Assembly: GCA_004376295.1 (NCBI GenBank)
Contig: SOJZ01000002.1
Span: forward strand, 1-64,000
Direction of reading: 5' to 3'
Origin: Candidatus Bathyarchaeota archaeon
Lineage (GTDB): Archaea; Thermoproteota; Bathyarchaeia; Bathyarchaeales; Bathyarchaeaceae
DNA: 64,000 nt
Below are positions 44,523-64,000 of the stretch, piece by piece (position 1 is the stretch's first letter; every line of letters begins with the position of its first letter). Under the pieces are notes generated by a model, which saw only the letters and a program-made list of their open reading frames with translations, did not search any database and was not told the DNA's origin. Made by a program: the position numbers and the translations under genes.

Positions 44523-46013
44523 TCAGTATATTGGTTTGTTTCTAGTCTTCAAAAGGTAGATGTTTGTGACCAAAAGTATAACCGCTACGAGTAGGAAGAA
44601 GTATAATAGGTCCAAGGTTCCTATGAGTTGAGTTTCCAAGCCGCCGTGACTTGTCTGTAGAGCAGAATAGTCATCTTTCAGGCTATCATAGTCATTCTGT
44701 AAAGAATAGTTGTTCTCCTCTAAACCTTCGATCTGTAGTCTTAGGTTTATAACTAGGGGCAAATCACTCACAACCTCTTCTTCTCGTTTCTGCAGTTCAG
44801 CAATTTCTTCTTCACCCAACCATCGTAGCCGAAGCGTAGGATCACCAATTATGGTTAACCCGTAGAACCATTTTTTTCCGATGTATGCACTGCTGAGTCC
44901 GAATTCACCCTGACCCCATTTGATGAACCATTCTTTGAATGCATCGCCTATTGTTCTGCCTCTAGCTAGGGCTTCGTAAAAAGTCCAATACATGAGCATG
45001 CCACCTGTTTTGGTGCTGCTTATGGCCAGCAATCCATGGTTGCCTTTGAATATGATTGAACCGGCAAGATAGTCTGGTTCGGTAAACTTTGCGGCTTCGC
45101 AGATGAAAAGCTGGTAAAAGAGGGCGTTAGGGTCAATTTCTTGGTATTCCGTGGAGTAGATTACGCCGCCGTCTCCTTCTGGCACCATAAATTGATGTCG
45201 GTTCCAAGTGCCATGAGAGCGAAGGTGTACCCACTCATAGCCTTGTCCTAATCTCTCCTTGTAATCGTTGGCGTTTGTCGTTGCCTTGTCTGTTACAACG
45301 GTTGTTTCATTGTACAGCAGTTTGAGAGAATTTTCATCCATGCTTTTGAAGTTCACCCAGTCATCGTCAATGTATATCAACGCTCGTCTGGGTAGTGAGG
45401 GCGCGTCGTTTCGGTAGTCATGGTTCTTGTTGAAGTAATTGTTGATTAATGAGACTTCGTCGTCGCCTAGGTTAGAGGTTTTGATTCTTCCAACCCATAT
45501 TTCAGGGTCGATTTTCATCTTTCCTGTATGTTCATCATATACCCCATCGTTGTCGTTGTCTATCCAGTCTCCGTCGAGGTCCATGTAGTACAGGTCTGTT
45601 GGAAATCTTTCGTAATCCCATTCTGTGAACATCTCGAATTCCGCTGCGGGTAGGTCTCCGATCAAGAGGGCGCCTGCCAAACTGTTGTTAGAGTAGAATT
45701 GTTGCAGGGTTTCACGGATACGAGAGGCATTCGATTCGGACCAGTTCAATATTATTGCGTCTTCGAAACCAGAATTCATTAGATCCTGTCGATACTGATC
45801 TAAAGAGTCTTTTATATCATCGTAGATGGTTGAGTTGACAAAAACTAGAATGATTAGGCTCGTCAAATTTGTTCCAGTGGGCTGACTTACGAGTTCAACA
45901 TCTACTGCCTTGTCTGAAGCTGCATAACTCTTAGCCTCTGTCCTGGCAACAATCGTGGGAATAAGAATGCTCGCCATTAAGGTGGTTACAATCAAAACTA
46001 TTGTTTTCTTCAA
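44523..46013 (-). CDS. Secreted peptidase, C25 (gingipain) family-like
   Basis: This 496-aa protein starts with a signal peptide (residues 1-27) and has a caspase-like catalytic domain. H267 in LRSHGTWNRH and C305 in LFICEAAKF form the C25 catalytic pair, and FYEALARGRTIGDAFKEW and IIGDPTLRLRW complete the family pattern. DLDGDWIDNDNDGVYDE (near 145-161) is a calcium-type acidic loop. The C-terminus has a coiled coil (residues 400-465) and a transmembrane helix (470-490), so it is anchored on the outside of the cell. Gingipain relatives cut after Arg or Lys; the specificity here is unknown. It lies next to peptide transporter genes. Confidence 0.85.
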   Translation of the reverse strand: MKKTIVLIVTTLMASILIPTIVARTEAKSYAASDKAVDVELVSQPTGTNLTSLIILVFVNSTIYDDIKDSLDQYRQDLMNSGFEDAIILNWSESNASRIRETLQQFYSNNSLAGALLIGDLPAAEFEMFTEWDYERFPTDLYYMDLDGDWIDNDNDGVYDEHTGKMKIDPEIWVGRIKTSNLGDDEVSLINNYFNKNHDYRNDAPSLPRRALIYIDDDWVNFKSMDENSLKLLYNETTVVTDKATTNANDYKERLGQGYEWVHLRSHGTWNRHQFMVPEGDGGVIYSTEYQEIDPNALFYQLFICEAAKFTEPDYLAGSIIFKGNHGLLAISSTKTGGMLMYWTFYEALARGRTIGDAFKEWFIKWGQGEFGLSSAYIGKKWFYGLTIIGDPTLRLRWLGEEEIAELQKREEEVVSDLPLVINLRLQIEGLEENNYSLQNDYDSLKDDYSALQTSHGGLETQLIGTLDLLYFFLLVAVILLVTNIYLLKTRNKPIY

Positions 46014-47796: not shown

Positions 47797-49905
47797 TCAA
47801 TCGTTATGTTCGCGTTGAGTTACGGTCTTTCTCATCTTAACCGTGAATATCAAAGCAATCAAAATGATCGCTAACACTATTGCAGCCAAAACCCAAGTAA
47901 AATTAATTCCTATTGTCGCATCCCTCGGAAGCACATTTATCTCTGTCTGACCTTGTCCATTCTGGTACTCAGTTTTTGTAGCTATTGCCGAGATTGTGAC
48001 CACGGTGTTTTCTGTTACTGTTGGGGTGGTGAACATAGAGACAATATATCCGGTTGAATTCGTTTTTTCCGTCTTAGGTGAAAAAACTCCGCCCTTGTCT
48101 GAGAACAATGTTACATTTGCGTTAGAAACAGAGTTCAATTCAACAGTTACTCGGACGGTTACGGTCAAATTTTCGCCAGACTGAACTGCCTCAGAATCCG
48201 TAGCAATGAAAACAACCAAGGTTGATTGAACCTTTACAGTGACAAATGCTGTGTTGTTACTTTCAAGACCAAGATCATCCAAAACTTTCAGAGATCCAGT
48301 GTATATGCCTAGCGATGTGTAAGCGTGCACTGTCACTGGTTGCGTGATCCAACTACTGTTTGTGCCGTCACCGAAATCAAAGAAATAGCCATTAATGCGG
48401 CTGTCATCAGTTGACTTGGAAGCATCAAACGTGATCATTTGGTTTGTGGTTACCACTGTTTCGTTTACTTCCAGTACGGCAATCGGAAGTCTATTAACAG
48501 CTGCACTCGTAAGAAAAGGCTTAAGAACTAGGTCGCTTTCGTCGCCATTGACTGAGTTGCCTTTTCCGTTGGTGTTCAGAATTTCATGATATGGACCAGT
48601 GGGATCCCCCCAATAGTTGTGGGTTGCATTCACGGTTGCGCCGTTTGACACATACACTCCGTAAGTGTTGTTGTAGATATCGTTGAAGTGGGCAATGTTA
48701 TCCGTGTCGTCTTCATAGAAAGCCCCATACGCATTGTAAGAAATCGAATTGTGCGTTATATTTGTTCTAATGCCTTCTTCTGGTTCTCTGAGGGCTCCTC
48801 CGAAAACATAAATTCCTTTGTCCACATTTGCTGACACGGTGTTGTTCGATATCACTACGTCAAAATCTATGTACTGATTGTGAGTATTGGCGAAAAGATG
48901 CACTCCAATTCCATTAGACATGATCTTGTTATCAGAGATTGAAACACGGTAGATGGTGCCGAGCCAAGGTCCACTGCAATTTAAATAGATTCCATACTTC
49001 TCGTTAGAATACACTGTGTTTTCAGAGATTAGTGTGTCATAAATTAGGTTTGTGGCGAAGTAGCCGAAACCGCCCCAAATGTAGAAGTAGATTCCGTTTT
49101 TGTTGAAATTGATGGTGTTTCGAGAAATGGTTACGTTGTTGATCCAGCCCGAAGTTATAGGATAAACGTGGAACTTGATTCCATTCTCGTTAGAAGAAAA
49201 AGTGTTGTCTGAAATTGTGATGTTTTTGATTTGGCTAATTCCTACGCTACTTGCGTATAAGTGGATACCGTTGTAATTTGAGTCAATAATGTTATTGAGA
49301 ACTTTTATGCCTGAGGACACTTTCCCAGTAGAAGAAATCCCATTATTGTTGAGTTTAATGGTGTTTCCTTTTATGATAACGTTGCTCTCACCGATTACAT
49401 GAATGCCACTGGAATAGTTGTTGATTATGCTAGAGTTTTTGATAATGGCCTTGCCTGAGTTTTGTATTGTTACCCCGTTTTCTGCATATTCTACGATGCA
49501 GTTTCCTAAGATGAAAGATTCGTTCTCTGCCGTAGCAAATTTTATGGTGTTCCAATCGCCAGCGCGTGGAATCATGTTGTTGGAAGTGAAAGTTATCCAT
49601 TTATCATTTGTTCCTACTGCATACAAGCTTCCGTTAATGAGCAGGGAGAAGTTTCCGTCAAATTTGATCTCGACTCCGGGTTCTATGGTTAAGGTAGTTC
49701 CATTACTGATTGTTACGTTACCTGTTATCGCATATGGGCTTCCACTTAACGTCCATGTTGTGTCTTGAGAGATAATGCCTTGCACAAATGTAAGGTTCTC
49801 CGCGTAAGATGCGACATTTAGAGCCGAATCCATGGGACTCGTGACTATTAACACAGCAACGATACTCAAAAGCGCTGTTTTTTCTGCATCACTAAGGTGT
49901 AACAC
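47797..49905 (-). CDS. Membrane-anchored surface protein: beta-helix, PKD and Ig-like domains
   Basis: This 702-aa protein has a signal peptide (1-32). A right-handed parallel beta-helix of NosD/periplasmic copper-binding type follows (about 50-465, many NN-x-I-x-N-N turns). Next is a PKD domain (about 475-555, YFFDFGDGTNSS). After it come an Ig-like domain (about 560-655, ANVTLFSDKGGVF) and a C-terminal transmembrane helix (667-690) ending in a basic tail. The many Asn-X-Ser/Thr sites suggest glycosylation. It is probably an S-layer-associated surface protein that binds or cleaves glycans. Confidence 0.82.
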   Translation of the reverse strand: MLHLSDAEKTALLSIVAVLIVTSPMDSALNVASYAENLTFVQGIISQDTTWTLSGSPYAITGNVTISNGTTLTIEPGVEIKFDGNFSLLINGSLYAVGTNDKWITFTSNNMIPRAGDWNTIKFATAENESFILGNCIVEYAENGVTIQNSGKAIIKNSSIINNYSSGIHVIGESNVIIKGNTIKLNNNGISSTGKVSSGIKVLNNIIDSNYNGIHLYASSVGISQIKNITISDNTFSSNENGIKFHVYPITSGWINNVTISRNTINFNKNGIYFYIWGGFGYFATNLIYDTLISENTVYSNEKYGIYLNCSGPWLGTIYRVSISDNKIMSNGIGVHLFANTHNQYIDFDVVISNNTVSANVDKGIYVFGGALREPEEGIRTNITHNSISYNAYGAFYEDDTDNIAHFNDIYNNTYGVYVSNGATVNATHNYWGDPTGPYHEILNTNGKGNSVNGDESDLVLKPFLTSAAVNRLPIAVLEVNETVVTTNQMITFDASKSTDDSRINGYFFDFGDGTNSSWITQPVTVHAYTSLGIYTGSLKVLDDLGLESNNTAFVTVKVQSTLVVFIATDSEAVQSGENLTVTVRVTVELNSVSNANVTLFSDKGGVFSPKTEKTNSTGYIVSMFTTPTVTENTVVTISAIATKTEYQNGQGQTEINVLPRDATIGINFTWVLAAIVLAIILIALIFTVKMRKTVTQREHND

Positions 49906-51472: not shown

Positions 51473-52483
51473 TCAAGCTTTATATTTGTGGCATGCCACA
51501 TATCTGTTCTTTTCTATCTCGACCATTTTAGGTTCCTTTGTTTTGCAGACTTGCATCACGTAAGAGCATCTTGTGTGGAATCTACAACCAGAAGGCGGAT
51601 TGATAGCGCTGGGGACCTCACCTTTTATCACAACGTCACTTCGTTTCGCTGTGGGATCTGGGACAGGCACGGCGGAGATAAGTGCCTCGGTGTATGGGTG
51701 TAACGGCTTTAAGATGATGTCTTCTGTTGGGCCTTTCTCGATAATCTTTCCCAAGTACATTACTGCTATTCGGTTACATATGTATCGGGCTAGAGCTATG
51801 TCGTGAGTTATATAGAGAAATGATGAATGATGCTTTTTCACCAGCCCAAGCAACAAATCAAGAACTTCGCTTCTGATAGAAGCATCAAGCATGGAAACAG
51901 GCTCGTCTGCCATCAAAAATTCAGGTCGGAGTACAAAGGCTCTTGCTATGGCAACTCTCTGCCTTTGCCCACCACTCAGTTCGTGGGGGAATCTGTAAAT
52001 GTACTCCTCCGGCGGCGTCATTTCTAAATCTTCCAAAACTTCCATCACTCTCTCTCTAAGCTCTTCCAAGTTTTGCGCAACCTTCAGCAGTTGTAGAGGC
52101 TCGGCAATAATGTCAAAGACACCCATTCTTGGATTTAACGACTCGTACGGGTCTTGGAAGATTATTTGCATTTTTCGGCGTAGTCTTCTCATTTCGTTTT
52201 CGTTGGCGATAGCCGTTACGTCTAGGCCTTTGAAGTACACTTTCCCTGCTGTCGCCGGCAAAAGCCTTAGTAACAATCTTCCTGTTGTTGTTTTTCCACA
52301 GCCACTCTCACCCACTAGTCCAAGGATTTCCTCTTTCTTTATGACAAAACTTATGTCGTCTACTGCATGAACTTGAAGAACACGCTTAGACATTAATGTG
52401 CTAACAAACCCCATTTTTACGGGGAAGTATTTCTTCAAGTTTTGAACTTCTATGCATACATCTTGCGACATGTTTTCACGCAC
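51473..52483 (-). CDS. oppF: Oligopeptide ABC transporter ATPase, OppF-like
   Basis: This 336-aa ATPase has Walker A GESGCGKTTTGRLL, signature ELSGGQRQRVAIARAF, Walker B FLMADEPVSMLD and the oligo_HPY tail GCRFHTRCSYVMQVC. It pairs with OppD to energise peptide uptake. The start overlaps the end of oppD by 8 bp. Confidence 0.93.
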   Translation of the reverse strand: MRENMSQDVCIEVQNLKKYFPVKMGFVSTLMSKRVLQVHAVDDISFVIKKEEILGLVGESGCGKTTTGRLLLRLLPATAGKVYFKGLDVTAIANENEMRRLRRKMQIIFQDPYESLNPRMGVFDIIAEPLQLLKVAQNLEELRERVMEVLEDLEMTPPEEYIYRFPHELSGGQRQRVAIARAFVLRPEFLMADEPVSMLDASIRSEVLDLLLGLVKKHHSSFLYITHDIALARYICNRIAVMYLGKIIEKGPTEDIILKPLHPYTEALISAVPVPDPTAKRSDVVIKGEVPSAINPPSGCRFHTRCSYVMQVCKTKEPKMVEIEKNRYVACHKYKA

Positions 52484-53438
52484 CTACAAGATGGCATGCC
52501 ACCGTATGTTCTTTGCCACCTGCCTCCACCATTTTAGGCTCCATTGTTCGGCAGACATCCATGGCGTATGAGCATCTTGCATGGAATCTACATCCGGATG
52601 GTGGATTAAGAAGGTCAGGTGGGAAGCCATGTATTGAAGATAGCTGTGTTTTTGGTCCCACCACGCTTGGAAAAGCACCAATCAATTTTGCAGTGTATGG
52701 ATGTATCGGTTCTTTGAAGATAGACACAACACTTCCGAATTCCACAATTTTTCCGGCATACATGATGGCAATCTTATTGCATGTTTCAGCAAGCATTGAC
52801 AGATCATGGGATATAATGATCATGGAGAGATTTAGTTTTTGCTGCAGTTCTCTCATAGCTTTGAGGACCTGAGCTCTTACGATGACGTCTAACGCTGTTG
52901 TGGGTTCGTCTGCAATAATCAGGCTTGGATTGCACGCCAAAGCCATCGCTGTCACCGTGCGCTGTTTCATGCCCCCGCTTAGTTCATGGGGATAGCGGTT
53001 AATCATAGAGGCGCCGATTCCAACGAGGTCCAAAAGTTTGCCAGCTCTTTCCAACGCTTCCTTCTTGCCTACGTTTTCGTGGGCAATGATTGGTTCGGCT
53101 ATCTGGTCTCCAATGTGAATTGTTGGGTGAAGGGCATTCATGGCTCCTTGAAATATCGCGGAGATTCGTTTCCATCGGAACTTATCTCGAAATTGATCGT
53201 CGTTCATTCCTACGATATCGACGTCATCAAAAACAATTTCTCCGCCCAGAATCTCTCCGTTCCAAGGCAAGAGCCTTAGAATGGTTAATGCTGTGCTGGT
53301 TTTTCCACAGCCAGATTCCCCGGCGAGTCCCAAAGTGTCTCCCTTGTTCAATTCGAAGCTAACATCGTCCACAGCTTTGACATATCCTCTCATCGTTTGG
53401 AAATACATTTTGAGGCTTTTGACTTCTAAAAGGGCCAT
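52476..53438 (-). CDS. oppD: Oligopeptide ABC transporter ATPase, OppD-like
   Basis: ATG 53438 is chosen because it lies just after the oppC stop. The 320-aa ATPase has Walker A GESGCGKTSTALTIL, signature ELSGGMKQRTVTAMAL, Walker B LIIADEPTTALD and the oligo_HPY tail GCRFHARCSYAMDVC. It is the main partner of OppF in the operon. Confidence 0.93.
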   Translation of the reverse strand: MALLEVKSLKMYFQTMRGYVKAVDDVSFELNKGDTLGLAGESGCGKTSTALTILRLLPWNGEILGGEIVFDDVDIVGMNDDQFRDKFRWKRISAIFQGAMNALHPTIHIGDQIAEPIIAHENVGKKEALERAGKLLDLVGIGASMINRYPHELSGGMKQRTVTAMALACNPSLIIADEPTTALDVIVRAQVLKAMRELQQKLNLSMIIISHDLSMLAETCNKIAIMYAGKIVEFGSVVSIFKEPIHPYTAKLIGAFPSVVGPKTQLSSIHGFPPDLLNPPSGCRFHARCSYAMDVCRTMEPKMVEAGGKEHTVACHLVGA

Positions 53439-53439
53439 T

Positions 53440-54888
53440 TTACCGTCGTCTCCGCAGCCTTGGGTTGACAATTTCATCTATCGCGAATCCCATGAACACA
53501 AAGGCTAAACAAACGAGTGTGATGGCTATTCCTGGGGGAATTGCCCACCACCAAGCAAAGTTCTCGAAGGCGCCGTGTCCAAAGGCATAGTTGAGCATTT
53601 TTCCCCATGTAGGCACTCGGGGATCACCAAATCCCAGAAAGCTAAGTGAAGCCTCTGCCAGGATGCCCCCTGGGACGCTCAGTACTAGTGACGCTAGAGC
53701 GATTGGAATGATGTTTGGCAGCAAGTGTTTGCGCATGATATAAGGTCTACTTGCGCCAGAGGCTACCGCGCATTCGACAAAGGCAGCCTCTCTGATAGAT
53801 AGAATTTGAGATCTGATAGTTCTCGCCAAACCTAGCCATCCAAACAGAGCTATGAAAATAATAACGTAGAACACGTTCTTCCCGAAGAGTTTCACCAACG
53901 TCAGTAGTAATGGTAGCCCTGGCAGACACAGCAGAATATCAACTATGCGCATGAGTGTCTCGTCAACCGCACCACCTACATATCCAGCAACGATGCCTAC
54001 GAGAACGCCTATGGACGTCCCAATAGCAGCTGCCATCAGCCCTATGATCAGTGAAACTCTGGTACCGTAAATCAATTGTGAAAAGACGTCAGACCCTGCA
54101 AAATCTGTGCCAAGTATGCCATGAACAAGACCTGGAATGAAGAATTTGAAATCCAGCAAACTTATTTCAGCTCTGGCCATTCGTGTGTCCTCCTCAGGTC
54201 TGAAGGACACTTGGAAGACCAAACTGTATTCACCTATGATTGGATTTGAAAAAATGAGGTTTGCGAGGTTGATTGCCTTCGGGTCGGAATAGCCAATACT
54301 TTTGAGTAGCCAGTAGTCTGTTGATTCTGCTATAACAGACAGACTCCTAGGCAAGTCAGTATATGGTTCTTTCCAAATACGAGTAGAGGTTCCGTTGGGG
54401 TTAACTAGGAACAGTTTAGATGAATACCTGACGTCTGTGAGATTCTTTGCTACCCAGTCGAATGTAACGGCGAATCTGTTCGGTGGGACCGAATAGGAGT
54501 AGTTGAAACTAGTGGTGAAAGAGATATCTACCATCTTCGTTTCTCCAGTCATGTAGAAACTGCATTCCACGTCTTTTCCAGGATAGATTTCAACGAAATC
54601 GGATCCGTTTCCGATCTCCCAAAGAGGGAATATTTCCATTGTACGTGGGTAATCGCTGTATTGAGGGAGGATTGTCATCCAACCAGGCTGTGCGAAACCA
54701 TCGGCTACTCGAGAAGGTGTTATTGGATCGTACGGGGTTAGCCAAGGAGCAAAAACTGCCATTACTATAAACATCAATAGGAGCACTAGACCAAAAAACC
54801 CTATTTTGTTGTGGCTGAATTCTTCCCAAAATCCTTTGATCTTTCGTGAGTATATTGTTCTCCTTTCCTTGGAAAATAGAGTTGCCAT
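53440..54888 (-). CDS. oppC: Oligopeptide ABC transporter permease, OppC-like with large insertion
   Basis: This 482-aa permease is longer than the usual ~300. After the first helix (about 30-52) there is a ~180-residue extracytoplasmic insertion (about 75-255) before the core permease, which begins ILGTDFAGSDVFSQLIYGTR and contains the coupling motif EAAFVECAVASGASRPYIMR. The insertion is beta-rich (STSFNYSYSV-like strands) and could help dock the peptide-binding protein. Confidence 0.9.
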   Translation of the reverse strand: MATLFSKERRTIYSRKIKGFWEEFSHNKIGFFGLVLLLMFIVMAVFAPWLTPYDPITPSRVADGFAQPGWMTILPQYSDYPRTMEIFPLWEIGNGSDFVEIYPGKDVECSFYMTGETKMVDISFTTSFNYSYSVPPNRFAVTFDWVAKNLTDVRYSSKLFLVNPNGTSTRIWKEPYTDLPRSLSVIAESTDYWLLKSIGYSDPKAINLANLIFSNPIIGEYSLVFQVSFRPEEDTRMARAEISLLDFKFFIPGLVHGILGTDFAGSDVFSQLIYGTRVSLIIGLMAAAIGTSIGVLVGIVAGYVGGAVDETLMRIVDILLCLPGLPLLLTLVKLFGKNVFYVIIFIALFGWLGLARTIRSQILSIREAAFVECAVASGASRPYIMRKHLLPNIIPIALASLVLSVPGGILAEASLSFLGFGDPRVPTWGKMLNYAFGHGAFENFAWWWAIPPGIAITLVCLAFVFMGFAIDEIVNPRLRRRR

Positions 54889-54900
54889 CGACTTTCTCTC

Positions 54901-55893
54901 CTATCTTCTAACCCCCACTCGTATGCGCGGATCCAGGATTCCATATAGAAAGTCTGCGATGAGATTGCATATTATTACCAGGACGGCATATATGAAAAGC
55001 ACTGCCTGAACTACTGGGTAGTCGTTGGCGTTTAAGGCTGCTATATACCATGAACCGATTCCCGGCCAAGTGAATATGTATTCGGTTATCATGGCTCCTG
55101 TGACAATTGCTGGAATGGATAAGGTTATGATCGTACTGATTGGTGGAAGGATGCTTCGGAAAGCATGTCTGTACAACAATGTTCTTTCACTTAAGCCTTT
55201 AGCTCGTGCCGTGACCATGTAGTCTTGGGTGAGGGCATCGATTATCAGGTTTCTGACATATAGGGCCCATCCCCCAAAGCCGGCTATTATGAGTGACAGG
55301 GCTGGTTGTGCCAGATGCCATGCTACGTCAGCCATATATACGATAGGATCAGTCGGTTTTGGGACGCTCGTCATATGTCTTGATGGAAAGAATTGGAAGC
55401 CGAACCATAAGAAAAAGAGATAGGAAAAAAAGAGTAGAAAAATCATCTGAACAAAGAATGTTGGCACCCCGTCTGCGAAGAGTCCCACACCGAGAGAAAA
55501 AACGTCTGCTTTGCTTCCTCTTCTGGATCCAGCGAACACTCCCACGGAGATACCAAGAATTATTGTGCCTATTGTTGCTGTTCCAAGAAGCAGAATCGTG
55601 TTAGGTAGGCGCCACGACAGCTCTGTAATTACTGGCATCCTTGACTGGAAGGAAACACCAAATCTCCATGTGAACATGTTTTGGAGATACTTAATGAATC
55701 GGATATGAAGTGGTTCTAATAGACCCCATGATTCAAGTAGCATTTGCTTCTGTTCTAGTGTGAAATCTGGATTGAGTATTGTTGATGTAGGGTCACCCGC
55801 CCACATAACTTGGAATATTATGAAATTTAGCGCCGCTACGACGAACAGAACACCTATCGCGATTATTATTCTCTTAGCCAGATATTCTCTCAT
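54901..55893 (-). CDS. oppB: Oligopeptide ABC transporter permease, OppB-like
   Basis: This 330-aa permease has six helices, the N-terminus REYLAKRIIIAIGVLFVVAA, the segment FGVSFQSRMPVITELSWRLP and the coupling motif DYMVTARAKGLSERTLLYRH. It opens the operon oppBCDF on the minus strand. It is divergent from the solute-binding protein gene at 56105, and the 211-bp gap between them must hold both promoters. Confidence 0.93.
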   Translation of the reverse strand: MREYLAKRIIIAIGVLFVVAALNFIIFQVMWAGDPTSTILNPDFTLEQKQMLLESWGLLEPLHIRFIKYLQNMFTWRFGVSFQSRMPVITELSWRLPNTILLLGTATIGTIILGISVGVFAGSRRGSKADVFSLGVGLFADGVPTFFVQMIFLLFFSYLFFLWFGFQFFPSRHMTSVPKPTDPIVYMADVAWHLAQPALSLIIAGFGGWALYVRNLIIDALTQDYMVTARAKGLSERTLLYRHAFRSILPPISTIITLSIPAIVTGAMITEYIFTWPGIGSWYIAALNANDYPVVQAVLFIYAVLVIICNLIADFLYGILDPRIRVGVRR

Positions 55894-56104: not shown

Positions 56105-58174
56105 ATGATGATGAATAAACCATTGAAGCGTGTAAGCTTAGCATTGATTTGCATATCGATTCTTGCAACGATGTTCGCAGTAAATCCCGCTTTTGCGCAA
56201 CCTCAGCGAGGTCCTAGAATTGACACTTTGCGGTATAAAGTTACTAGGTCCCCTGCCGCTCAATTGATAGAGATGACGCTTGGTCCACCAACTGGCAGCG
56301 ACCTGTGGCTGGGCATGATTAGGCCCACAGATGTTGAAGCGATGGATGACCTAGGTTACAGCTTAAGCTCTAGGTCACTGTTGCACTTCTGTGAATTCGG
56401 CTTTAACATGCGTAACCCACCACTTGACGACGTGAACTTCAGGCATGCTCTTGCCCACTTGGTGCCAAAAGAAAAGATCATTGGAACATTGTTCAAATAC
56501 ATTAACATACCAATCTCTACAGCGGTGCCTCCAGCCCAAGGATTGTGGTATAACCCATACACTGATCCACATCCATACAGCCGAGCAGAGGCTGAAGCCA
56601 TATTGGCTGCGGCTGGTTACCAGAAGATCGGCGACGTTTGGAAGATGCCTGACACCAGCGACATCCCCAACTTGAGAGTATACATTCCACTGGAAATCGT
56701 GGCGCCAACATCTTACACTATCGGCAGGTTGTTTGTTGACGAGGCTCATGCGATAGGCTTAACCAGCCTTAACTTGGAACCCATGGACTTCGCAACGTAT
56801 ACGGCCTTGGCTTTCGACGACTGGGACTTTGACATATTCTGGGTTTGCTGGAGCTTAGGCAGGTTCCCAACTCTACTATACTCATTCTTCCATTCTTCAA
56901 ACCTCTTCTTGGGAAGCTACAACCCCTACGGAATCAACTATCCAGCCCTAGACGCAGAAATTGAGACCTTCTATTATGGTCTTGACCACCCAGCTAAGGT
57001 GGCGGCCGCAAAGAAGGCTCAAGAGCTCGTTATGGGTGGAACAACCATTGATCCATTACTCTACCCCGCACAGGCAGGAAGGGAGCAGGCAATACCGCTA
57101 ATACCCGTCTATTCAAGAAACGCCTATGACGTCATGACTGACGACGATATGGGTACCCCTGACCCATCAGATGATGAAGGCCTTAGGGGAGGAATCAACA
57201 TGTTCGGCTATGGCATCAACAACGGTTGGACTTACATGAACGCCTACTGGAACACACCCGATGGATACAGACCAGGCACCACTGACAACATGATTGTGCC
57301 GGTTCATGACGAGTTCCCAGAAACACTCAACCCAACCTCCGGAAGCACAGTCTATGCATGGGACATTATGGACAGAACAATGGACGGACTTATGGCTACG
57401 AACCCGTATACTCACAGAGATGAACCATGGCTAGCCACCTCATGGTCTTATGGAATTGAGGCAGGCGGCATGTACATAAGATTCGATCTTCGAACTACAG
57501 ACCTTCACGGACAACCCATTGAGTGGCAAGACGGAGTTAACATAGCACCTAGCGACGTACAATTCTCATGGGATTTCCTCGCCGACCACGAAATATCAAG
57601 GTATTGGGACGACATGATGTACTACCTAAGTTCTGACATTTCTGGAAACGAGATTACGGCACACATGAGCACAACCAGCCAATGGCTGATATACGCCCTT
57701 GCTGGAACTGCGTATATGCTTCCACCACCAGTCTGGACACCTATGATTGGACAGCCAAAGAACACCATAGAATCTTGGGATCCATCAGCTGAGGCGGGAC
57801 CGGGAGGTCTGCCAACAAAAGTTTACGGAGTAGGCCCGTTCATACTGCAGCACAGCACCTTAGAGTTCGCAAATAACGGCTACGGCGATCTTGACGCAAA
57901 CCGCAACTACTGGCTAGAAACAGATGACATCACAGACATAATCGCAGACATGTTCCACAGCGCAGGCGACGTTGATTACATCGGCGAAGTTAGCATTGTT
58001 GCTCTTCAGGCTATAAACTTGGCCATGTGGACCGCTCCAGGCGATTCTGACTGGTACGAAAACGCAGACATCTGTGGTCCTGGAGGAACACCGCCAGACA
58101 GCTACGTTGGCATAGACGACCTTGGAACTGCCGGCAAATTCTACGGCGAACCTAAAGAAGTGCCTCGTATGTAA
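56105..58174 (+). CDS. Family 5 peptide-binding protein with C-terminal dockerin-like domain
   Basis: This 689-aa secreted protein has a signal peptide (about 1-32). It combines SBP_bac_5 segments in unusual order. C-lobe features come first (DDVNFRHALAHLVPKEKIIG near 105-125, YSRAEAEAILAAAGY, AKKAQELVMGGTT). N-lobe features come later (DEFPETLNPTSGSTVYAWDI near 400, PWLATSWSYG, WQDGVNIAPSDVQFSWDFLA). The last ~69 residues (about 621-689) have dockerin spacing: GDVDYIGEVSIVALQAINLA, a spacer with ADICGPGGTPPDS, then VGIDDLGTAGKFYGE. It is presumably the substrate receptor of OppBCDF. Seventeen bases separate it from a cohesin gene. Confidence 0.85.
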   Translation: MMMNKPLKRVSLALICISILATMFAVNPAFAQPQRGPRIDTLRYKVTRSPAAQLIEMTLGPPTGSDLWLGMIRPTDVEAMDDLGYSLSSRSLLHFCEFGFNMRNPPLDDVNFRHALAHLVPKEKIIGTLFKYINIPISTAVPPAQGLWYNPYTDPHPYSRAEAEAILAAAGYQKIGDVWKMPDTSDIPNLRVYIPLEIVAPTSYTIGRLFVDEAHAIGLTSLNLEPMDFATYTALAFDDWDFDIFWVCWSLGRFPTLLYSFFHSSNLFLGSYNPYGINYPALDAEIETFYYGLDHPAKVAAAKKAQELVMGGTTIDPLLYPAQAGREQAIPLIPVYSRNAYDVMTDDDMGTPDPSDDEGLRGGINMFGYGINNGWTYMNAYWNTPDGYRPGTTDNMIVPVHDEFPETLNPTSGSTVYAWDIMDRTMDGLMATNPYTHRDEPWLATSWSYGIEAGGMYIRFDLRTTDLHGQPIEWQDGVNIAPSDVQFSWDFLADHEISRYWDDMMYYLSSDISGNEITAHMSTTSQWLIYALAGTAYMLPPPVWTPMIGQPKNTIESWDPSAEAGPGGLPTKVYGVGPFILQHSTLEFANNGYGDLDANRNYWLETDDITDIIADMFHSAGDVDYIGEVSIVALQAINLAMWTAPGDSDWYENADICGPGGTPPDSYVGIDDLGTAGKFYGEPKEVPRM

Positions 58175-58191
58175 ATTTGGAGGTAAATAGA

Positions 58192-59565
58192 GTGAGAGGA
58201 AAAACTATATTGTGGTTGACGCTGATTGCATTGCTTATGGGCGTTGCTGTACCAAACTTAGGCGTGGCACAACCGTATACAACAATCTCTGTTGATCCCT
58301 CGTTGATTACTGGTCTTTTGCCAGGTGACTCGTTCGGTGTGGACATATACATTACGGACGCTGTAGGTGTTCACGCTTGGGAAGTTAAACTGGCATATGC
58401 ACCATACATGGACGTCATGGTTGTGACTGACATCATCGAAGGCGACTTCCTCATGGGAGGCGGCATGACAACGTTCGCTAAATACGTAGACCATTTCTAT
58501 GGCTTTGCTATGTTCGGAGCAACTGGAGACATGGACCATTACGGAGTCTGGGGTGAAGGCATTCTGGCAACAGTGGTCTTCTCCATCTTGGAAGCAGGTG
58601 AATGTGACCTTAACCTCTACGACACAATACTCTTAAACCGTGACAAAGAGGAACTATCCCACTCAGTCGTGGATGGCTACTACCTAGGTCCCACAGCAGA
58701 TCTGAGAAAGCTGTTGGGAACTGCACGTGGACGCAAAGCACCATATACAGCCCCGGCTTCCATGGATATGAAAGCCCAAGTCGAAAACACAGGGTATGCA
58801 GATATTTACGCCCGTCTCAAGTTCTCATCTGTGCACGAAAGCGGCAAGACAGTCACGCTATACAGCGGACAACACCTATGGACGACAGAGCCCAGAGCAC
58901 CAGAATACTACTACGTGAACGAGTTCACGCCTGTCTGGACCGCATGGGATATGATCGGCGATGAGCCATGGATAGATGAGGCAGAAGATGGTAGCTACAT
59001 TGAGGGATGGAACCACGGTGAAATCATAGGAATCTTCGGTTTCGAAGACATAACTTTGAATCCAGGAGACATAATCTCCCAAGTGACACTCGAGGGCTAT
59101 ACACAAGTCGATGGCGGCCATATTGACATTGACATCTACGTCTATCCAACTATGGCATGGATAGACTCACTGTGGGGCGGTGCCGACTGGGCATGGCATA
59201 CTACACGGTGGGTAGACCCCGTCACCTCGAACATCGATCCATCACTAAAAACTCTAGCAGGCTTCAACGACTGGACGATTCTGATATACTGCTACGCTGC
59301 TGCTGGCGAATCCACGAAGCTTGACGCATTAAGGCTGAAGGTGGAGTTCACAGGCATAGAAGGCGACCCAACATGGGAGCACATACCCGTAGGTGCACCA
59401 CCAACTGACTTACCACCAGCCGTATGGGATATATACGATTTCGATGCAGGCGATTGGGACACGACTGTCACGTGCGAATACAGATACAACTATCCCGACC
59501 CACGCTTCTTACAAGTTTGGCAAACAGCAAAAACAATAGAGACCTACTCTTGGTCCGTCAAATAG
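58192..59565 (+). CDS. Secreted cohesin-domain protein
   Basis: The start is GTG 58192, 7 bp after GGAGGT. The 457-aa protein has a signal peptide (1-26) and a cohesin-like domain (about 30-165). Within it, GDSFGVDIYITDAVGVHAWE, GDFLMGGGMTTFAKY and the signature GEGILATVVFSIL are visible. A ~290-residue beta-rich C-terminal region follows with no recognised family and no membrane anchor. Cohesins bind dockerins; the gene directly upstream encodes a dockerin-like tail and the gene downstream a dockerin, so it could link them. Confidence 0.78.
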   Translation: MRGKTILWLTLIALLMGVAVPNLGVAQPYTTISVDPSLITGLLPGDSFGVDIYITDAVGVHAWEVKLAYAPYMDVMVVTDIIEGDFLMGGGMTTFAKYVDHFYGFAMFGATGDMDHYGVWGEGILATVVFSILEAGECDLNLYDTILLNRDKEELSHSVVDGYYLGPTADLRKLLGTARGRKAPYTAPASMDMKAQVENTGYADIYARLKFSSVHESGKTVTLYSGQHLWTTEPRAPEYYYVNEFTPVWTAWDMIGDEPWIDEAEDGSYIEGWNHGEIIGIFGFEDITLNPGDIISQVTLEGYTQVDGGHIDIDIYVYPTMAWIDSLWGGADWAWHTTRWVDPVTSNIDPSLKTLAGFNDWTILIYCYAAAGESTKLDALRLKVEFTGIEGDPTWEHIPVGAPPTDLPPAVWDIYDFDAGDWDTTVTCEYRYNYPDPRFLQVWQTAKTIETYSWSVK

Positions 59566-59589
59566 CCATAAAAGGCAAGACGGGCTTCC

Positions 59590-59610
59590 CCATTTCCCTT
59601 TTTTGTTTTG
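59590..59610 (+). terminator. Candidate U-tract terminator
   Basis: A pyrimidine run, CATTTCCCTTTTTTGTTTTG, lies 25-45 bp after the cohesin gene stop and just ahead of the BNR-dockerin gene start at 59639. It is a plausible archaeal transcript end. Confidence 0.4.
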
Positions 59611-59638
59611 AATATTAACAATCGCGAGTGGTTAATGT

Positions 59639-61570
59639 ATGAACAGGCAAAGACTAGATTTTTTTTTCGCATTCACTCTCTTACTCTTGGCACTACTGAA
59701 TGTGCCATATACTTCTGCAGTCACGTGGTCATCAGATGAACGCCTAACCGAGGCTCTTGCTTTCGAGGGGGCTCCTTCAATAATCCAAACAAGCAACAAT
59801 AAAATATGGATTGTGTGGAAAAAAGTCGTACAATCCACCTCATCAATATTCTATACAACATCCTCAGACTATGGTGCGTCTTGGTCCCCCGGGAAGAACA
59901 TAACAGCTTTTCCCCGCCTAGATACAAACGTAGATCCTGCAATTGTACAACTTTCAAATGGCACTATCTGGGCGGTCTGGTCGGCTGAGAAAGTTCCTCC
60001 CGACTTCAGTTTGAGCGCTTCCCCCTCACAACTGAGCATCCTCACAGGTGGCTCCGACAACTCTACTATCACAATAGCCTCCATAAACTATTTTCAAGGC
60101 TTGGTAGACTTGGCTGTCATCTCGATCAAGCCTATGACTGATTCTATTAACACAACTTTCACCCCACCTCAAGTCAATGTTCCACCAAACTCCGAAGCGA
60201 ATTCCACCTTAACGATCGATGTTGCGGTAGAGACGACCCCTGACAACTACACACTAGTGGTGAGGGGGACAAGCGGAAGTCTGTGGGATTCTACAACCAT
60301 CGAGGTAGAAGTCACAAACTCAACATCATCCTCCACCTCCATCTCTGACGAGACAACGCCTCTTTCCCCCATTTTTCCAATGCAATCGGAAGTCAATTAC
60401 GAGATCTACTACAAATACTCGCACGATAACGGAACCAACTGGTCAAGCGAATACAAACTCGTAGAAAACCCAGCTGATGACCTTGGCCCCTTCATTCTTC
60501 AAACTTCAAACGGCACTATCTGGCTCGTCTGGTCGCGCGACATCACAGCGTACAATTCTGAAATCTTCTACAAAACCTATAATGGGTCAACATGGTCAAA
60601 TGACACTCAGCTGACATACGATGATTCCCCCAAGAATTACCGTCCAGCAATTACTCAAATGGAGGATGAAAGAATTTGGGTCATCTGGCATTCAAACCGA
60701 TACGACCCGGAAAAGAATGAGATACTCTACAGAACCTATAATGGGTCAGCATGGTCAAATGCCACTCTGCTACCTAACGACCTGGACTTGGACCGCAAAT
60801 ATCCTGCAGTCTTTCAAGATGGCAACGGAACAATATGGATGTTCTGGACGGGGCGGATCAGTGGTGAGAGTGATGGTGATGATATTTATTACAATCAATC
60901 ACTTGACAATGGTACCACGTGGGAAAGTAGCGTTCATCTCATTGACCACGGAGCTGAAGATTGGGGTCCTGCCGCAATCCAGAGTATCGACTCAAGAATC
61001 TGGGTTGTGTGGACGTCAAACAGAAGTTACTCAGAGGGCAACTGGGACCTCTATTATAGAACTTCCTTCGTTCGCAATGTGGCGGTAACCGAGATTATAC
61101 CTTCCGAGACCCAAATCTACCAAGAAGAGAATGTTACAGTAGACGTGACGGTTCAAAACTACGGTGACTACAATGAAACATTCAGTGTGAACTGCTACAC
61201 CAACTCAACATCAATCGGTAGTCAAGGTGTCAACCTAACTGCGAAAGCATCAGACGTAGTAACCTTCACTTGGAACACCTCGGGTTTCGCTCGAGGCAAC
61301 TACATTCTGAAAGCGAATGCAAGCAGTGTTGGCGGCGAAACCTATACCGGAGACAACACCATTACCCACGAAAATGTTCGAGTGAAGCTACTTGGCGACG
61401 TAGACGATAATGGAGTCGTCGACATCTCGGACCTGTATGCACTAAGTGTGGCTTATGGCTCTGTTCCGGAAAACCCTAACTGGAATGAAGAAGCCGACAT
61501 GAACGGAGACAACGAAGTAAATGGTCTTGATATGTCTGCGCTCGTCAAAAAATATGGTGAAACAGGATAA
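59639..61570 (+). CDS. Secreted BNR/sialidase-like repeat protein with CARDB and C-terminal dockerin
   Basis: This 643-aa protein has a signal peptide (1-28). BNR-like repeats follow (SSDYGASWSPGKNI, SHDNGTNWSSEYKL, SLDNGTTWESSVHL), with an Ig-like segment near 120-210. A CARDB domain lies at about 480-580 (SVNCYTNSTSIGSQGVNLTA). A classical type I dockerin (about 585-643) comes last: GDVDDNGVVDISDLYALSVA, then ADMNGDNEVNGLDMSALVKK. BNR repeats form beta-propellers that bind glycans. No sialidase Arg triad was identified, so catalysis is uncertain. It is rich in N-glycosylation sequons. Confidence 0.85.
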   Translation: MNRQRLDFFFAFTLLLLALLNVPYTSAVTWSSDERLTEALAFEGAPSIIQTSNNKIWIVWKKVVQSTSSIFYTTSSDYGASWSPGKNITAFPRLDTNVDPAIVQLSNGTIWAVWSAEKVPPDFSLSASPSQLSILTGGSDNSTITIASINYFQGLVDLAVISIKPMTDSINTTFTPPQVNVPPNSEANSTLTIDVAVETTPDNYTLVVRGTSGSLWDSTTIEVEVTNSTSSSTSISDETTPLSPIFPMQSEVNYEIYYKYSHDNGTNWSSEYKLVENPADDLGPFILQTSNGTIWLVWSRDITAYNSEIFYKTYNGSTWSNDTQLTYDDSPKNYRPAITQMEDERIWVIWHSNRYDPEKNEILYRTYNGSAWSNATLLPNDLDLDRKYPAVFQDGNGTIWMFWTGRISGESDGDDIYYNQSLDNGTTWESSVHLIDHGAEDWGPAAIQSIDSRIWVVWTSNRSYSEGNWDLYYRTSFVRNVAVTEIIPSETQIYQEENVTVDVTVQNYGDYNETFSVNCYTNSTSIGSQGVNLTAKASDVVTFTWNTSGFARGNYILKANASSVGGETYTGDNTITHENVRVKLLGDVDDNGVVDISDLYALSVAYGSVPENPNWNEEADMNGDNEVNGLDMSALVKKYGETG

Positions 61571-61679
61571 ACGAGCTTGGGCTTAATGAAATCATTTTGA
61601 TTTCTGAACCGCAGAATGCGCATGCATGCCAAGGGTCGCCGGAAAGAAATCGTTGTACAATTACGGACCACAATGGATA

Positions 61680-61688
61680 AATTTAAAT
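61680..61688 (+). promoter_or_regulatory. Candidate TATA box for the anchored cohesin gene
   Basis: AATTTAAAT lies 55 bp upstream of the ATG at 61743, giving a short leader. It is preceded by a GCATGCATGC element at 61619-61628. Confidence 0.5.
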
Positions 61689-61742
61689 GTTGCATCAAAT
61701 AAAGCACTGATAACTTGGACTGATATAGGCGAGTGAAGTGAA

Positions 61743-62945
61743 ATGAAAGGACGAAAGCGTTTATTGTTACCGCTTTGCATGTTTGCCTTGAGCGTCATGA
61801 TAGTTGGTCTAGTTCCTACCGCGTTTGCGGCGCCAAATATCTATACGTACCCAGAAACGTCAATTCATGAACCTGGTGAGACCTTTACAATTGATGTGAA
61901 GATTTCGGATGCTATAGATGTGTTTGCATGGGATTTCAAGCTGAGTTGGAACGCCTCTGTCCTCAACTTTACTGGAATTGAAGAAGGCGATTTTCTAACA
62001 GGATTTGAACAAACACCCACATACTTTGTCAACAAGACCTACCAAGACGAGGAGGGCCTAGATTACATAGGGGTTGCATGCACACTGCTCGGCCCCGACA
62101 CTCCAGGCGTAATTGGGCCTGGAATACTGGCCACTGTAACGTTTTTAGTAGAGAGCAGAGGTGAAACCGCCCTGGACCTCTATGGCACCCAGTTGAGGGA
62201 CAGCAGAATCAGCCCAATCGAACACACTGCGACTGATGGTTTGTTCACGAACATTGCATATCCTCCCACGGCCAGCTTCACGTATTCTCCTATCAAACCT
62301 GATATCGATGAAGACGTAATGTTCAATGCGAGTGCCAGTTCCGATTCAGATGGTTACATAGTTGGTTATTTCTGGGACTTTGGAGATGAAGACACTGCCA
62401 ACGAGATTGAACCTTTCGTTTATCATGCCTATGATGAAGGCGGACCCTACTCTGTTACACTCACGGTTACTGATAACGAGGGGTGGAATGGTTCTGTTAC
62501 TCATGACGTAGCGGTTAGGTATGCGCATGACATAATGGTTATATCAGTTTCTGAATCTCACACCACAGTTACGGCCGGTGACAGTGTCACTATTACCGTG
62601 ATCGTTGGTAATGTGGGATCTGAAGATGAAGACGGGTTTGACGTGAACGTTTATTATGATGGTACTGTCGCGGCACCATCTCAGACTGTGACCACTCTGG
62701 CTTCAGGTCAGAACAAGACGTTGACTTTCAGTTGGGATACAACAGATGTGGCTGAGGACACCTATAGAATGAAAGCTGTGGCGAGTTCAGTTTCTGGTGA
62801 AACTTACACGGAGGACAATACAAAGTTAGGTGGTACTGTCACTGTTACTACGGCTGGGGAATTTCCGTGGCTGTACGTCGGTGCTGGTGTTGTTGTAGTT
62901 GTGATAGCTGGTGTAGCACTGTACTTGTGGAAGCGTAAAGGATAG
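61743..62945 (+). CDS. Membrane-anchored cohesin-PKD-CARDB protein
   Basis: This 400-aa protein has a signal peptide (1-29) and a cohesin-like domain (about 30-175, with GETFTIDVKISDAIDVFAWD, EGDFLTGFEQTP and GPGILATVTFLVES). A PKD domain (about 178-260, GYFWDFGDEDTAN), a CARDB domain (about 262-365, FDVNVYYDGTVAAPSQTV) and a C-terminal transmembrane helix (about 375-394) ending KRKG follow. Its topology makes it the natural cell-surface anchor of the cohesin-dockerin set. Its CARDB end (SSVSGETYTEDNT) closely resembles that of the BNR protein (SSVGGETYTGDNT). Confidence 0.85.
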   Translation: MKGRKRLLLPLCMFALSVMIVGLVPTAFAAPNIYTYPETSIHEPGETFTIDVKISDAIDVFAWDFKLSWNASVLNFTGIEEGDFLTGFEQTPTYFVNKTYQDEEGLDYIGVACTLLGPDTPGVIGPGILATVTFLVESRGETALDLYGTQLRDSRISPIEHTATDGLFTNIAYPPTASFTYSPIKPDIDEDVMFNASASSDSDGYIVGYFWDFGDEDTANEIEPFVYHAYDEGGPYSVTLTVTDNEGWNGSVTHDVAVRYAHDIMVISVSESHTTVTAGDSVTITVIVGNVGSEDEDGFDVNVYYDGTVAAPSQTVTTLASGQNKTLTFSWDTTDVAEDTYRMKAVASSVSGETYTEDNTKLGGTVTVTTAGEFPWLYVGAGVVVVVIAGVALYLWKRKG

Positions 62946-63155
62946 AGTGCTTTATAGAAGTAAAGACCGAGATCAAAACTCCATTTTTTCTTGCTGCTCT
63001 CTTCTTTTTGATTGAGAGTGGAAAATGATGTGTTTTGAATTGTTTTTTGTGTTGAAACCGGAAGAAAGCGGCGTAAAACCGTCTATAACCATGCTGCAAG
63101 TTTGTGTTTCAGCAACTTTCAAATCATTTTTCTGCACGCATACATAGAATAATAT

Positions 63156-63165
63156 TATATAAAAA
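63156..63165 (+). promoter_or_regulatory. TATA box for the right-edge cohesin gene (TTATATAAAA)
   Basis: TTATATAAAA lies 73 bp upstream of the ATG at 63229. Initiation near 63190 would coincide with the ATGCATGCA-like variant GCATGCACGCA at 63190-63200. Confidence 0.55.
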
Positions 63166-63228
63166 AATGAAGTAAACCTTAATAGAATTGCATGCACGCA
63201 TATGTTGTATAGAGAGGAGTTGGAGAAG

Positions 63229-64000
63229 ATGAAGCGGCCTAGTCTGCGCCCTATACACGGTATGTGTATAATATTTCTAGTTCTTTCTGCTCTATTTGTT
63301 TCCTCAATTCCATTGGCAGATGCATCTCCTGATGTGCTGATAACTGTTGATCCTCCTTCGATCACTGGCCCTCTGCCAGGCGACCAGTTCGGTGTGGACC
63401 TATATATTGTGGATGCCTTGGGGGTGCACGCGTGGGAGGTCGAGCTGCTTTTCGACAAGAAGGTTCTACACGTCATTGAGTTTATTGAAGGCGACTTTCT
63501 GATGGGAGGTGGCGTCACAACCTTCAATTATTACATAGATAACCCCACGGGTTATGCCCAGTGCGGAGCAACTGGAGACGCAGACCATTACGGAGTCTGG
63601 GGTGAAGGCATTCTGGCAACAGTGGTTTTTGAGGTTATGGGGGGAGGCAACAGCCCCATCGACATCTACAGCTCAACTCTCTTGGACCGAGAAAAAACTC
63701 CTCTGCCTCACACGGCGGAGGACGGCTACTTCCAAGGCAAGGCGCCATACGCCAAATTCACGTATTCCCCCAGTCCTATAAGTGACGGTTACACTCCAGC
63801 GGCCAACCAAACGGTAACATTTAATGCGAGTGACAGCTACGATCCAGACGGAACAATCGTAAACTACCATTGGGATTGGGGTGATGGAACAACACCAGGG
63901 GATACCACCAACCCTGTGATCGATCATGTTTTCACTCAGCCAAAAGTCGCAGGATATATTGTTAATCTCACGGTCACAGACAACGCAACCAACGAAGAAT
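63229..64000 (+). CDS. Cohesin-PKD protein, 3' end outside the window
   Basis: This frame starts at ATG 63229 after GAGGAGTTGGAG and stays open for 257 codons to the window edge; it is partial. A signal peptide (1-34) is followed by a cohesin-like domain (about 36-165, GDQFGVDLYIVDALGVHAWE, GDFLMGGGVTTFNYY) and the start of a PKD domain (about 170-257, NYHWDWGDGTTP). A 63-base block is almost identical to the cohesin gene at 58192, so the two are recent duplicates or have exchanged sequence. ATG 63202 is an in-frame alternative. Confidence 0.82.
   Translation, partial: MKRPSLRPIHGMCIIFLVLSALFVSSIPLADASPDVLITVDPPSITGPLPGDQFGVDLYIVDALGVHAWEVELLFDKKVLHVIEFIEGDFLMGGGVTTFNYYIDNPTGYAQCGATGDADHYGVWGEGILATVVFEVMGGGNSPIDIYSSTLLDREKTPLPHTAEDGYFQGKAPYAKFTYSPSPISDGYTPAANQTVTFNASDSYDPDGTIVNYHWDWGDGTTPGDTTNPVIDHVFTQPKVAGYIVNLTVTDNATNEE

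Follow-up and report, generated by a model that had tools for sequence, protein, structure and literature searches.

A circularly permuted transporter receptor with a C-terminal dockerin, encoded beside cohesin genes in Bathyarchaeia

The window analyzed here (the whole stretch of 64,000 bases) spans the first 64 kb of contig C2, which is 77,981 bases long and belongs to a Candidatus Bathyarchaeota genome (1.89 Mb, 99.8% complete). A complete Opp/Dpp importer set (two permeases and two ATPases; 51473-55893, minus strand) lies beside a receptor gene, and divergent from oppB/C/D/F runs a receptor-cohesin array of at least nine genes, which extends beyond the window to the contig end. Genes are named by their starts, with a small correction that places the starts of two cohesin genes at 58177 and 63202. 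The features are as follows.

51473-52483, minus strand: oppF, oligopeptide ABC importer ATPase (ABC_tran and oligo_HPY); place and divergent orientation are the same in loci L091, L092, and L128
52476-53477, minus strand: oppD, oligopeptide ABC importer ATPase (ABC_tran and oligo_HPY); a conserved neighbor of the receptor
53440-54888, minus strand: oppC, permease (BPD_transp_1 and OppC_N)
54901-55893, minus strand: oppB, permease (BPD_transp_1)
56105-58174, plus strand: circularly permuted SBP_bac_5 receptor, with signal peptide, C-part (aa 36-372), N-part (aa 397-602), and dockerin (aa 621-682)
57965-58150, plus strand: the receptor's C-terminal dockerin, where relatives carry a transmembrane (TM) helix; the first Ca loop is degenerate
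58177-59565, plus strand: secreted cohesin protein of 462 aa without TM or dockerin (cohesin at 58270-58692)
59639-61570, plus strand: secreted BNR-CARDB-dockerin protein (Pfam), with same-place counterparts in genomes G078 and G160
61743-62945, plus strand: cohesin-PKD-CARDB protein with a C-terminal TM anchor (Pfam); the L091 orthologue is 35% identical
63202-64000, plus strand, gene cut by the window edge: cohesin-PKD/CARDB protein; the whole product has 1181 aa and a C-terminal TM (L013 3202-6747)
66861, beyond the window: cohesin and dockerin
68108, beyond the window: cohesin, CARDBs, and dockerin
72600, beyond the window: cohesin, PKD, and TM
77168, beyond the window: cohesin and dockerin, gene cut by the contig end

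An earlier, sequence-only reading of the window had noted a C-terminal membrane anchor on one of the genes and raised the prospect of further cohesin genes to the right. A C-terminal TM is present in 61743, 63202 also ends in a TM beyond the window, and the contig does continue with more cohesin and dockerin genes (the last four listed) to its end. A little upstream of the opp genes, the minus strand encodes a peptidase C25-like protein (44523-46013) and a NosD/beta-helix-PKD protein (47797-49905), each with a C-terminal hydrophobic segment.

All three genes of the window that had been taken as cohesin-like and consecutive encode true cohesins, although the BNR gene intervenes. Pfam matched the cohesin of 61743 (PF00963; 3.1e-10), with PKD, CARDB, and a C-terminal TM, and its search returned no cohesin match for 58177 and 63202. 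A cohesin profile built without these two scored them at 104.8 and 99.0 bits, respectively (shuffle control, ≤5.1 bits in 200 shuffles of each), and an 11-sequence cohesin profile matched PDB cohesins, 2xdh among them. The 58177 cohesin, the only one of the three that was modelled, gave a cohesin fold (pLDDT 93.9); its top PDB match was 2xdh, an Archaeoglobus fulgidus cohesin (TM-score 0.79/0.81; E, 1.7e-13), and all 50 matches listed for the model were cohesins or cohesin complexes. Each array protein has one cohesin, and the sole two-cohesin protein sits elsewhere, on C40. The earlier word "scaffold" is loose, because one cohesin per array protein looks like one-to-one tethering and not like a multi-cohesin scaffoldin.

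The dockerins of 56105 and 59639, both named in the earlier reading, likewise hold up under profile search. Pfam found BNR_2, CARDB, and Dockerin_1 (PF00404; 5.7e-8) in 59639, where both F-hand repeats have Ca ligands; the glycan binding once ascribed to this BNR protein found no support. The 56105 dockerin was missed by Pfam and detected by a local dockerin profile not containing 56105 (E, 2.5e-6). It aligns with the intact dockerin of a paralogue on C12, but its loop 1 (DVDYIGEVSIVA) has lost Ca ligands that the paralogue, with both Ca loops kept, retains (DVNRDGVINDVD). Loop 2 has an inserted stretch common to the C12 paralogue and the G160 receptor. This degenerate state, and the circular permutation described below, go beyond the earlier reading.

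Dockerin cargo in the window's genome and its relatives includes subtilases, BNR proteins, and beta-helix proteins. Dockerin-bearing glycoside hydrolases were absent from the locus and from the dockerin proteins scanned in four genomes (several sequences partial), in keeping with the earlier description of the system as non-cellulolytic. On C12 (genome G000), a subtilase-dockerin gene (L015 224-4417) is convergent with a second permuted receptor-dockerin gene (L015 5209-8586), whose product has extra beta domains after the dockerin. A stretch of ~12 residues (DITGPEDPPASGEYPPDG) is inserted in dockerin Ca loops, often in both, at L013 17168-17980, L016 6832-7515 (minus strand), and L016 1891-3771. 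In cohesin protein 66861 (L013 6861-8105), two dockerin repeats, the first seen by eye only, are apparently split by an inserted beta domain of ~150 residues, which gave no Pfam or PDB match.

The window's gene order is repeated within the genus by L091 (isolate CSMAG_2176) and in another genus of the family by L128 (G160), as oppFDCB, divergent SBP-dockerin, cohesin (464-473 aa in L091/L128), BNR-dockerin, cohesin-TM (434-448 aa), and long cohesin-TM (982-995 aa); a second G160 locus (L144) has a variant of this order. Gaps between the receptor and the first cohesin gene are 2, 9, 2, and 23 bases. Proteins along the array are only about 34-35% identical between the window and L091, so the gene order is old and has been kept.

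Receptor 56105 matched SBP_bac_5 (Pfam; 6.2e-31) in two stretches that cover profile positions 3-365 with the C-terminal half first: positions 145-365 were matched ahead of positions 3-156, so the canonical order of halves is reversed. Residues 209-354 of solved dipeptide receptors align to the start of 56105, and residues 101-198 of one solved receptor align to its aa 447-543. A native-order profile aligned to 56105 without a break (1-527) but split the canonical bacterial receptors used as controls into two swapped stretches; with a rotated profile, the result was the reverse for both. A single-sequence scan of genome contigs gave no matches. The permuted family was matched in 43 of 257 genomes of the class, and the members examined there, in a Thermofilales genome (L090), and in other classes of Thermoproteota have the permuted order, which is therefore not an assembly artefact; a fault of a single assembly was rejected, with dozens of genomes repeating the order. 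A model of the permuted receptor built from 7 sequences was poor (pLDDT 42.9; pTM, 0.32), so the permutation rests on profile order, which identifies 56105 as a circular permutant of SBP_bac_5.

Two other SBP_bac_5 receptors, L064 991-3342 (minus strand; G000, C31) and L058 1003-3372 (minus strand; G078, C21), have a different permutation point, with ~115 C-part residues, then the N-part, then the remaining C-part; permutation seems to have occurred more than once. The L064 receptor also ends in a C-terminal TM. The permuted receptors L037 8576-11500 (minus strand) and L046 8899-11814 (minus strand), from G128, have a beta domain of ~150-190 residues inserted inside the receptor part, and the L037 receptor ends in a helical repeat.

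The C-terminus of the permuted receptor differs among lineages. It is a hydrophobic segment with a basic tail in families f21, f22, f16, and f3 of the class and in all 16 complete permuted receptors from outside the class, which makes the TM-ended receptor the likely ancestral state. The remaining families of the window's order mostly have a dockerin there (n = 27; 20 assigned by profile and 7 by eye), and two receptors (L037 and L135) have neither. A lipoprotein anchor on the dockerin receptors was rejected, as none of the 27 has a lipobox. A hydrophobic segment after residue 60 was found in only one of them; alternatively, the receptor might be anchored by a signal peptide that stays uncleaved.

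Among the neighborhoods fetched, a cohesin gene lay by 17 of 27 dockerin receptors versus 0 of 20 TM receptors (Fisher P, 5e-6), but the tree holds only about two TM/dockerin changes, hence two independent pairs and no phylogenetic significance, so this P value overstates the case and is no test of function. Genome-wide, one and the same profile found 10, 16, 22, and 1 cohesins in four dockerin-type genomes and none in eight TM-type genomes. By the cohesin profile used, G128 has only one cohesin for two dockerin receptors.

The domain calls, the TM or dockerin tails, the lack of any other predicted anchor, the presence or absence of cohesins, and the kept gene order together point to a tethering model, which we regard as probable: an Opp-type importer whose anchorless permuted receptor would be held at the surface by cohesin-dockerin pairing. 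In the window's order, a dockerin would have replaced the receptor's C-terminal TM helix, and linked genes (61743, 63202, and 72600) would supply cohesins on PKD/CARDB stalks with C-terminal TM anchors. The secreted receptor would then plug by its dockerin into such a stalk beside OppBCDF, and BNR protein 59639 would dock in the same way, as would the secreted subtilases encoded elsewhere in the genome. We infer the cohesin-dockerin binding, the surface location, the peptide substrate, and the choice of cohesin-dockerin partners from sequence. The earlier proposal that a surface system is built around a peptide-binding protein is thereby strengthened, with anchor replacement, the conserved locus, and the lack of cohesins in TM-type genomes behind it, and the surface location as a prediction. 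Several points count against the tethering model: the 56105 dockerin has lost ligands in loop 1, and the neighboring 58177 has no visible anchor; the small number of TM/dockerin changes on the tree, the seven tails assigned by eye, a signal peptide that might stay uncleaved, and the single cohesin of G128 weigh on the same side.

A wider version of the tethering model is possible, in which protein digestion and peptide catching are joined. Dockerin subtilases and permuted dockerin receptors would be plugged into TM-anchored cohesin stalks beside the Opp permease. Such an assembly would be analogous to a cellulosome, though non-cellulolytic, and would have evolved when a dockerin replaced the receptor's TM anchor. 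We hold this only tentatively, at clearly less than even chances.

The lost ligands of loop 1 bear on a different reading, in which the array belongs to a general extracellular adhesion or matrix system (PKD, CARDB, BNR, and beta-helix), the dockerin receptor is incidental, and its degenerate dockerin has ceased to bind. Stalk and adhesion-type domains are numerous in the array, and most dockerin cargo is unrelated to transport, as such a system would have it. Yet 27 receptors keep a dockerin and lack any other predicted anchor, the receptor and cohesin genes form a conserved, closely spaced pair beside the opp genes, and the C12 paralogue retains both Ca loops; we consider this reading unlikely.

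Slightly less likely again is that the dockerin serves as an assembly tag of a soluble or released complex, the receptor binding the anchorless 58177 and working off the membrane or on another cell or substrate. The gene 58177 starts 2 bases past the receptor stop and has an orthologue at the same place in L091 (464 aa, 34% identical); it and its counterparts (464-515 aa) follow the receptor gene directly and have no C-terminal TM. Against this, an ABC receptor is required to deliver to its permease, the same array has TM-anchored cohesins downstream, and the receptor's relatives are membrane anchored. Under the tethering model, 58177 may be an adaptor or a soluble competitor. Finally, an illusory permuted order, from tandem fusion of two partial receptors or an assembly or gene-calling artefact, would agree with the unconfident receptor model but is highly improbable given the spread of the order over 43 genomes of the class and further classes, the presence of exactly one C-part and one N-part (one whole receptor), and the detection of canonical-order control receptors by the same profiles.

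To our knowledge, archaeal cohesins and dockerins have had no known role since they were noticed in A. fulgidus. Here, one receptor family has a membrane anchor or a dockerin at the same position, and the dockerin form accompanies membrane-anchored cohesins beside a transporter; this alternation and the linked cohesins suggest a specific function, receptor tethering, and give a short list of testable domain pairs. In anoxic sediments, where Bathyarchaeia abound, they have been proposed to ferment peptides (PMC9534799).

Compared with bacterial cellulosomes (e.g., CipA of Clostridium thermocellum), the locus shares cohesin and dockerin modules and anchored cohesin proteins but its array lacks a multi-cohesin scaffoldin and glycoside hydrolases were not seen; a cellulosome was rejected on these grounds. 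The non-cellulosomal A. fulgidus cohesin (2xdh) is the best structural match of the 58177 cohesin but is only ~21% identical. With Opp/Dpp importers (SBP_bac_5, DppA), the system has the receptor family and the OppBCDF gene set in common; it differs in the swapped halves of 56105 and in a dockerin instead of a membrane anchor. The literature searched yielded a single natural case of a permuted transporter receptor, the circularly permuted glucose receptor TpMglB-2 of Treponema pallidum; its authors suggest that permutation and tethering are linked (PMC4990184). TpMglB-2 is likewise a naturally permuted ABC-transporter receptor but is a cluster B sugar-binding lipoprotein, whereas 56105 is an archaeal SBP_bac_5 receptor (peptide type) of a family with a C-terminal anchor or dockerin. 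The permutation is a further natural rearrangement of a transporter receptor, in a different receptor class, with the new C-terminus used for anchoring.

The closest parallel is in ANME archaea, for which dockerin-bearing NikA/OppA receptors and cohesin proteins, scaffoldin-like proteins carrying as many as five cohesins, and S-layer dockerins have been described (Chadwick et al. 2022, PMC9012536); according to the same paper, binding has been verified for archaeal cohesin-dockerin pairs. Dockerin receptors in archaea are therefore not a new idea, and both systems combine NikA/OppA-type dockerin receptors with cohesin proteins in non-cellulolytic archaea. They differ in that ANME have multi-cohesin scaffoldin-like proteins, whereas here there is mostly one cohesin per TM-anchored stalk, the locus beside the opp genes is conserved, the receptor is permuted, and its relatives have a TM at the dockerin's place. 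As far as the literature was searched, it is new that such receptors occur in Bathyarchaeia, that they are permuted, that a dockerin has replaced a TM among members of one family, and that the array is conserved.
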